Source of the DNA: an uncultured Clostridia bacterium
GTDB taxonomy: Bacteria > Bacillota > Clostridia > UBA1381
NCBI GenBank assembly: GCA_904395315.1
Contig: CAJFNT010000082.1
Location: forward strand, 1 to 45,609
Direction of reading: 5' to 3'
DNA length: 45,609 nucleotides
Below, one piece after another: positions 23,758 through 25,777 of this stretch. The stretch's first letter is position 1; every line of letters starts with the position of its first letter. The position numbers and the translations under genes are program-made. Under the pieces are notes generated by a model. That model was not told the DNA's origin. It saw only the letters and a list, made by a program, of their open reading frames with translations, and made no database searches.

Positions 23758-24756
23758 TCACCACTTCTCACAGCACACCGCCGCAATAAGCTTGACACAA
23801 GCCTCTATATCTTCAGTTTTTGCAAGCTCCGACGGTGAATGGATATATCTTACGGGCAGAGAGACAGCTCCCGCTCTCACTCCGGCTCCCGTCAGCGCGA
23901 TGGCTCCGGTGTCAGTTCCGCCGTCCGCCATTATCTCACGCTGATATTTTATCCCGTTCCTTTCCGCCGCGTCTATAAGCTTCTCTATCACAGTCTCGTC
24001 ACACATGACAGAACGGTCCATTATCTTTATCGCCGCGCCGCCGCCGAGCTTGACATCCATAGGCGGACATTCGGGAGTATCGCCCGTATCGGTCACATCG
24101 ACCGCCACAGCGTAATCAGGCATCACCGAAAAAGCCGCTGTCTTTGCGCCTCTCAGACCAACTTCCTCCTGTGTGCTGAAAACAAAATACAGATCGTTTT
24201 CGCTTTCCTCTATGAGCTCCATCGCCCTCAGCAATACACAGCAGCCCGCTCTGTTGTCGAGCGCCTTCGATATCACCGTTCCGCCGCTTTCGCAAAAGCT
24301 GCCGTCAAAGACCGCCATATCTCCGGTCTTTACCATTTTCTCGGCTTCAGCCTTATCCTTAGCTCCGATATCTATATACAGCTTTGACAGCTTAGGATCT
24401 TTATTGAACTCTTCCTCCTCCGAGCCTATGACTCCCACAGTCCCGTTCAGGAATCTTACGCGCCTTTTTGCCAGCTCGCGCGTATACAGTCCGCCGACCG
24501 CGCCGAAACGGATGAAACCGTTCTCGTCAGCATACGAGGCGATCACGCCTATCTCATCCATATGCGCGTCAAACATCAATTTTGGTCCGTTCCCCTGCCT
24601 GTGCGCTATGACGCTTCCGAGCGCGTCTGCGCTCACTTCAAACCCGAGCTTTTCCGCCTCGGCGCGTATCATATCCGACACAGCGCACTCTCTTCCCGAC
24701 GGCGCGTCCGCCTCCGTCAGCTTTTTCAGCAAATTTAAAGTCTTATCCGATCTCAT
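23758..24756 (-). CDS. M42-family aminopeptidase (intact active-site motifs)
   Basis: FDAHMDEIG, KALDNRAGC, TQEEVGLRG, AVDVTD, RYIHSPSE. Confidence 0.93.
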   Translation of the reverse strand: MRSDKTLNLLKKLTEADAPSGRECAVSDMIRAEAEKLGFEVSADALGSVIAHRQGNGPKLMFDAHMDEIGVIASYADENGFIRFGAVGGLYTRELAKRRVRFLNGTVGVIGSEEEEFNKDPKLSKLYIDIGAKDKAEAEKMVKTGDMAVFDGSFCESGGTVISKALDNRAGCCVLLRAMELIEESENDLYFVFSTQEEVGLRGAKTAAFSVMPDYAVAVDVTDTGDTPECPPMDVKLGGGAAIKIMDRSVMCDETVIEKLIDAAERNGIKYQREIMADGGTDTGAIALTGAGVRAGAVSLPVRYIHSPSELAKTEDIEACVKLIAAVCCEKW

Positions 24757-25777
24757 CGAAAATCACATCACTTTCCCCGACCAGAACCGAACACAGCTCC
24801 GCCGCGCTGTTCAGGTCATTTCTATTCATCATATTAACCGGAGTATTCTTGTATCTGCACGGTATCCCTACGGTAACGGTCCTGCACCCATCCGCAGCTG
24901 TCTGAACGGCTCCTGTCTCAGACGCGTATAGACTGCAGACCTGCTCGGTAAACTTCACCGAGTGTCTTTCCGCCGCATCCCTCGCCGCGGCGATAAGACG
25001 GGTATTCCCTATGCCGGCTCTGTCCATATGCTCCAAAACAGCCCCGCTGCCGAGCGCCGCCGTCCCGTCAGTCTTTCCCGAGACAAGATCTGACACGCAC
25101 AGAACATCGGCTACCACCGCCATATCCGGCTTTATGCCGTATGCCGCGCATGACATGCCCCTGCCCGGGATCTTGCACGGTATCTCTCGCTGCGCCGAAA
25201 AAACGTAATACGTGTCATACGCCGGAGCTATTTCCATAGCTTTTATAACGCAAACCGCTCCGAAGCGTCCGAGCGCTTTGCCGCGCAGCGTGTCGCCGTT
25301 CTCTTTGAATTGCGTGTCAAATGTCACATAATCACCGAGCGAAACACGCTTTTCAGCTCCAGATCTTTTTGAGCACCCTATATCTATATATAACGATCCG
25401 GTCTTAACAGCCGCCTCTCTCTCCTTCTTTGTCTGAAGATGGATGGCTTTCATTCCTATAACGCCCTTTACGCCCTTGTCGGTAACGACTCTCTTTGAAA
25501 TAACGGTGCGCGGATCGGGCGAGCCCACCGCCTTGAATTTCAGATATCCGCTGTCGGTCATCCCGCTCACTATAAACCCGGACTCGTCGATATTAGCTCC
25601 GATCAGCACGCGCTTTTTATCGGAACGCCCGCGCCGGAACGCGATAAGGTTCCCCATGGGATCGGTCTTGACACTGTCGCATTTGCCGGAAACAACGCTC
25701 TTTATATATTCTCTCACCTCAGTCTCACAGCCCGACACACCGAAAAGCTCGCTGAGTTTTTTTAAAGAGAAAGCCAT
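24743..25777 (-). CDS. M42-family paralogue with degenerate active site (putative pseudoenzyme)
   Basis: Aligns along its length with the two flanking M42 genes, but motifs read GANIDESG, KALGRFGAV, AQREIPC, VADVLC, RYKNTPVN. Confidence 0.85.
   Translation of the reverse strand: MAFSLKKLSELFGVSGCETEVREYIKSVVSGKCDSVKTDPMGNLIAFRRGRSDKKRVLIGANIDESGFIVSGMTDSGYLKFKAVGSPDPRTVISKRVVTDKGVKGVIGMKAIHLQTKKEREAAVKTGSLYIDIGCSKRSGAEKRVSLGDYVTFDTQFKENGDTLRGKALGRFGAVCVIKAMEIAPAYDTYYVFSAQREIPCKIPGRGMSCAAYGIKPDMAVVADVLCVSDLVSGKTDGTAALGSGAVLEHMDRAGIGNTRLIAAARDAAERHSVKFTEQVCSLYASETGAVQTAADGCRTVTVGIPCRYKNTPVNMMNRNDLNSAAELCSVLVGESDVIFDEIG

Follow-up and report, generated by a model that had tools for sequence, protein, structure and literature searches.

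Why a gene that has lost catalytic residues of its family should be kept between two intact paralogues is the question raised by a trio of M42 peptidase genes in the DNA analysed here, a stretch of 45,609 nucleotides from an uncultured Clostridia bacterium (the window). A model's reading of the letters (the sequence-only reading) had proposed that the middle gene, B, encodes a non-catalytic subunit of a mixed TET complex formed with the products of its neighbours, A and C. We examine this proposal through the catalytic site of B, its conservation and selection among relatives, its predicted fold and assembly contacts, and the fate of corresponding trios across the Clostridia.

The degenerate middle gene of an M42 trio

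B is a member of the M42 (TET-type) family by descent and fold: it is a full-length homologue covering profile positions 1-292 of 292 in Pfam M42 (PF05343), and the scores of A, B and C all lie far above the cut-off of 23.2 bits (Table 1). ORFs and Pfam scores place it between two intact M42 paralogues with the coordinates and strands originally claimed, and the two gene overlaps, 14 and 16 bp, are both found in the sequence. A GGGGAG motif lies close 5' of the ATG of B. Apart from these three, no M42 gene was detected in the genome assembly (89% complete).

Table 1. Features of the M42 trio and neighbouring genes in the window
Feature	Coordinates	Strand	Evidence or remarks
M3-family oligoendopeptidase-like gene, directly downstream of C	21556..23736	-	three SLH domains
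C, intact M42 aminopeptidase, gene 3 of trio	23758..24756	-	332 aa; Pfam M42 298.6 bits
B stop / C start overlap, 14 bp	24743..24756	-	sequence
B, pseudo-M42, gene 2 of trio	24743..25777	-	344 aa; Pfam M42 184.2 bits
B Asn311 codon, replaces metal (M1) ligand His (PfTET3 His314)	24845..24847	-	alignment
B Arg197 codon, replaces general base Glu (PfTET3 Glu207)	25187..25189	-	alignment
B Gly170 codon, replaces bridging Asp (PfTET3 Asp177)	25268..25270	-	alignment
B Asn62 codon, replaces metal (M2) ligand His (PfTET3 His63)	25592..25594	-	alignment
A stop / B start overlap, 16 bp	25762..25777	-	sequence
A, intact M42 aminopeptidase, gene 1 of trio	25762..26790	-	342 aa; H-D-E-E-D-H; Pfam M42 267.9 bits
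murD, 21 bp upstream of A	26812..28224	-	TIGR01087 358.3 bits
Likely large surface protein, TTG start as listed	28542..36674	-	2710 aa; SLH, Calx-beta and CARDB domains
Candidate peptide export and signalling cluster	36701..45289	other strand	see text

In PfTET3, whose residue numbering we verified against the PDB sequence, Glu207 is the general base. Metal M1, which is held by Asp177, Glu208 and His314, stabilises quaternary structure, and metal M2 hosts catalysis (PMC4745047). When the six catalytic positions (five metal ligands and the base) were aligned, A and C read H-D-E-E-D-H and B reads N-G-R-E-D-N, its residues being N62, G170, R197, E198, D224 and N311. The four motif changes first noticed against the neighbours (His to Asn twice, Asp to Gly, Glu to Arg) are all seen in this alignment, with ANIDESG, LGRFGA, QREIP and YKNTP of B opposite AHMDEIG, LDNRAG, QEEVG and YIHSP of C, and the one Glu and one Asp thought to remain are confirmed as Glu198 and Asp224. 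These are the two metal ligands left of five, Asn62, Gly170 and Asn311 occupying the other three positions; in B of the window species the M1 site is thereby broken too. Judged from its residues, B would not qualify as an active M42 enzyme, lacking both the general base and the set of five ligands.

Misalignment was rejected as the cause of the missing residues, the four separate motifs differing in context and being aligned across 43 sequences; the bridging-Asp region was the sole gappy stretch, and counts there were taken from a separate alignment of relatives. Chance or sequencing error is ruled out, since the orthologues in the 15 further genomes of the genus show comparable losses and none contains an internal stop.

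The surroundings of the trio vary in how widely they are shared. Among the loci compared for synteny (L046-L079, L084-L143, L151-L211), murD is directly upstream on the same strand at nearly all family loci with enough flank; it occurs so placed in about 14 of the 32 families sampled and is missing from that position in others. A link of the trio to cell-wall peptides through this adjacency is possible. The M3/SLH neighbour of C is conserved in genus g1 and at a few other loci (L061, L073). The distal segment on the other strand encodes two ABC exporters (one with a C39 peptidase domain), an HlyD-like protein, a periplasmic-binding-type protein and a LytTR/GHKL two-component pair, and resembles a cluster for peptide export and signalling.

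Retention, selection and repeated loss

In these gut Clostridia, every one of the genus's 16 genomes has a degenerate B without internal stop, and a B orthologue was retrieved at E<=1e-52 from 68 of 70 genomes of the family. Within the family B is degenerate in eight genera (g1, g4, g6, g10, g11, g13, g15, g16) and intact, reading H-D-E-E-E-H, in g2, g3, g5, g7, g8, g9, g12, g14 and g17; among solved structures, the one nearest to B in sequence, 2fvg (TM1049, from the PDB title), likewise reads H-D-E-E-E-H. The eight degenerate-B genera form one clade with support of 1.0 both in the concatenated A+C tree and in the B tree, and this monophyly fits a single loss and prolonged retention thereafter. 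Wherever A and C are complete in the clade, they are intact.

Pairwise Nei-Gojobori estimates, made with our own script on seven unsaturated g15 pairs (dS 0.16-0.36), gave dN/dS of 0.12-0.20 for pseudo-B, 0.02-0.13 for A and 0.06-0.18 for C. Pseudo-B is under purifying selection, slightly weaker than that on its active neighbours, and 17 columns are invariant over all 91 B sequences. Decay confined to this strain, which had been named as the outcome that would count against a role for B, is ruled out by the degenerate orthologues and the dN/dS values: the loss is fixed in an eight-genus clade and the gene is under selection. Comparison of the degenerate motifs in relatives, likewise suggested at the outset, found the general base absent from 43 of 43 pseudo-B sequences.

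Beyond the family, a class survey covered one A locus per genome in about 60 further Clostridia genomes, found via A; most genomes surveyed are metagenome-assembled. The A-B-C order, on one strand and mostly with overlaps, occurs in most of the approximately 30 Clostridia families sampled, and in 25 of 29 examined loci of other classes, where all members are intact. Within the Clostridia, C is degenerate in f11, f13, f21, f30, f43 (one genome), f32 (G205), f1 g7 (G035) and f19, and B in the f1 clade and f19, with a lone His-to-Gln change in G179. The old pseudo-C genes are shorter and highly divergent. In f19, an intact A and a pseudo-B are followed by no recognisable C at three loci (L172, L173, L143), and two others (L174, L175) hold a very divergent pseudo-C.

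Fitch parsimony on the A tree, in a count that leans on weakly supported deep nodes, assigned three changes to B, seven to C and none to A (about 10 in all); zero A changes in 10 would have a probability of 0.017 if the three members were equally prone. The catalytic set of A is intact in all informative genomes except for one conservative Glu-to-Asp change, in G205. Loci for the class survey were located through A, which could leave a degenerate A under-represented there; B-seeded searches of the family and order, free of this bias, retrieved intact A only. In M42 genes of this class that stand alone, the base and ligands are preserved, apart from one divergent group in which the last position is Ser.

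Predicted fold and assembly contacts

An AlphaFold2 model of B, computed as a single chain only from an input alignment of 91 sequences, had a mean pLDDT of 93.7 and a pTM of 0.92. Its best PDB matches by Foldseek (TMq 0.89-0.92) were TmPep1050 (TMq 0.89), the YtoP-YsdC model and two TET particles, from M. jannaschii and a thaumarchaeon; the match to TmPep1050 is to an M42 fold with the PDZ-like insertion. The fold of B is thus predicted to be intact.

In PfTET3, oligomer contacts include Gln206 and Arg212, and dimer contacts pair Arg311 and Tyr312 with Asp137 (PMC4745047). Each of the family's 43 pseudo-B sequences retains all five residues, and Asp137, Arg311, Tyr312, Gln206 and Arg212 are represented in B of the window by D132, R308, Y309, Q196 and R206. 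In the same 43 sequences the base (Glu207) is found in none and the adjoining Glu208 in 40, and 36 carry Arg, Lys or His in place of the base. Among 89 columns conserved in intact B, pseudo-B keeps 26 of 29 in the PDZ-like dimerisation domain (residues 66-160, a boundary set by the analyst) versus 34 of 60 in the peptidase domain (Fisher p=0.0017). A complete M1 site without M2 was found in 19 sequences and the reverse in two (sign test p=0.0002, the sequences not being independent).

Across A, B and C, no more than two of the seven oligomer-contact positions of PfTET3, Gln206 and Arg212, are largely conserved; the remainder (Phe219, Pro257, Asn292, Gln295, Arg298) are paralogue-specific or variable and were left out of the evidence. 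Since the contact residues are conserved in most active M42 proteins too, their retention speaks for the assembly competence of B and not for its choice of partner. Nor is such retention universal among pseudo-subunits, as several contact residues are lost from old pseudo-C proteins (f11, f21, f30), some of which may be drifting or have changed role. Metals promote assembly of the TET dodecamer (PMC4745047); a subunit whose metal sites are damaged could therefore assemble poorly.

A candidate mixed particle, its alternatives and known systems

The recurrence of catalytic loss in gene 2 or gene 3, never in gene 1, suggests that the trio works as one mixed particle. B is probably a non-catalytic M42 subunit, structural or regulatory, kept as part of a mixed TET with active A and C; in other lineages C would take this part. 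The sequence-only reading thus gains from contact residues kept despite loss of the base, from the fixed operon and from losses restricted to B and C, co-assembly being the part of it that we infer. Overlapping genes and a fixed operon would also fit three separate homo-oligomers; a single mixed particle appears to be the most economical reading of the observations together.

Among the alternatives, it is unlikely, though worth weighing first, that B forms a homo-oligomer with a new non-peptidase role, such as peptide binding or buffering or that of a sensor, independent of A and C. Strong purifying selection and the predicted intact fold agree with such a role, and the kept TET contacts would serve homo-assembly as well, but it leaves unexplained why losses recur only in gene 2 or 3 of trios and not in standalone M42 genes. 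The pocket, moreover, differs from genus to genus (GGN motif, base and His) with no new conserved site, and newly conserved positions number only three.

We give a rather low probability to a pairing of B with one neighbour (A-B or B-C) as a regulator or assembly factor, without a three-way particle. Some f19 genomes, with A and pseudo-B and no C found, and genus g9, where A and B are adjacent and C lies about 1.4 kb off, agree with such a pairing; most families, however, hold all three genes in fixed order with overlaps.

It is very improbable that B remains enzymatic through a changed use of metal or a changed chemistry: while Glu198 and Asp224 persist in the window, some g10 and g6 relatives lack the base only and have every metal ligand, and in others M1 is complete, the base is gone from every pseudo-B, the window species is without three of the five ligands besides, and the metal-site residues are not conserved between genera. 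That B is a decaying pseudogene carried by translational coupling in the operon is hardly credible, for although in most close pairs B changes at a somewhat higher rate than its neighbours A and C and the old pseudo-C genes are shortened and very divergent, the B orthologues examined are without stop or frameshift, dN/dS is not near 1, the degenerate clade of eight genera is ancient, and 17 columns are invariant among all B sequences, intact and degenerate.

Returning to the mixed particle, A would supply activity inside a shared chamber, so that B or C could lose theirs and still be needed to close the shell; B would complete that shell and, while cutting nothing itself, might determine the size of the chamber, entry to it or how substrates are handled. 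As a speculation, Arg, Lys or His at the base position could stand in for missing metal charge near the oligomer interface. If the particle were built from homodimers AA, BB and CC placed on opposite edges of a tetrahedron, an A4B4C4 assembly of D2 symmetry would result in which every apex contains A, B and C; enumeration, on the premise that three paralogues are built from homodimers, showed opposite-edge pairs to be the only 2:2:2 layout, up to handedness, with A+B+C at every apex. The stronger proposal, that this three-paralogue TET is obligate, with one A, B and C site per apex, and that several lineages have silenced one or two site types and kept the proteins as scaffold, we put forward tentatively, as a conjecture that may well be wrong. 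If the trio is one particle, the position-restricted repeated loss amounts to a natural experiment on dispensable sites, and pseudo-B, with contacts kept beside a lost base, offers testable material for separating metal, assembly and catalysis in TETs.

Related trios may extend to Thermotoga maritima. The closest solved relatives of C are TM1050/TmPep1050 (PDB 3isx/4p6y), and 1vho, which we take to be TM1048, scores higher against A than do 2fvg or the TM1050 structures; the consecutive numbers TM1048-TM1049-TM1050 suggest the same A-B-C order. Unlike the pseudo-B trio, TM1049 and TM1050 have the full catalytic set.

Mixed assembly has precedent in P. horikoshii, where PhTET2 and PhTET3 assemble into dodecamers, 6:6 and 8:4, whose apices are all of one mixed type (PMC4220976). 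As would hold for the trio, these M42 paralogues co-assemble into a tetrahedral dodecamer with all apices mixed; they differ in being archaeal, in numbering two and not three, and in that both subunits are active. Nearer in taxonomy, YtoP and YsdC of B. subtilis, M42 paralogues of a Bacillota species, were shown by crosslinking in cells to bind one another (PMC10090944; PDB 9a5r integrative model), these being two paralogues for which the part of that report dealing with the pair describes no loss of catalytic residues. Hetero-TETs are thus already known, and a search of the open-access literature turned up neither a catalytically dead M42 subunit nor an inactive M42 paralogue, so that an M42 subunit without a catalytic site appears undescribed there.

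Dead paralogues kept as structural subunits are familiar from other compartmentalised peptidases, namely the inactive beta subunits of the eukaryotic proteasome and ClpR in ClpPR. Those complexes are proven and their folds are unrelated to M42, whereas the complex of the trio is proposed here; the likeness lies in a compartmentalised peptidase that would retain its dead paralogues. Were the obligate A4B4C4 particle to prove correct, it would be a bacterial parallel to the mixed active and inactive rings of the proteasome.
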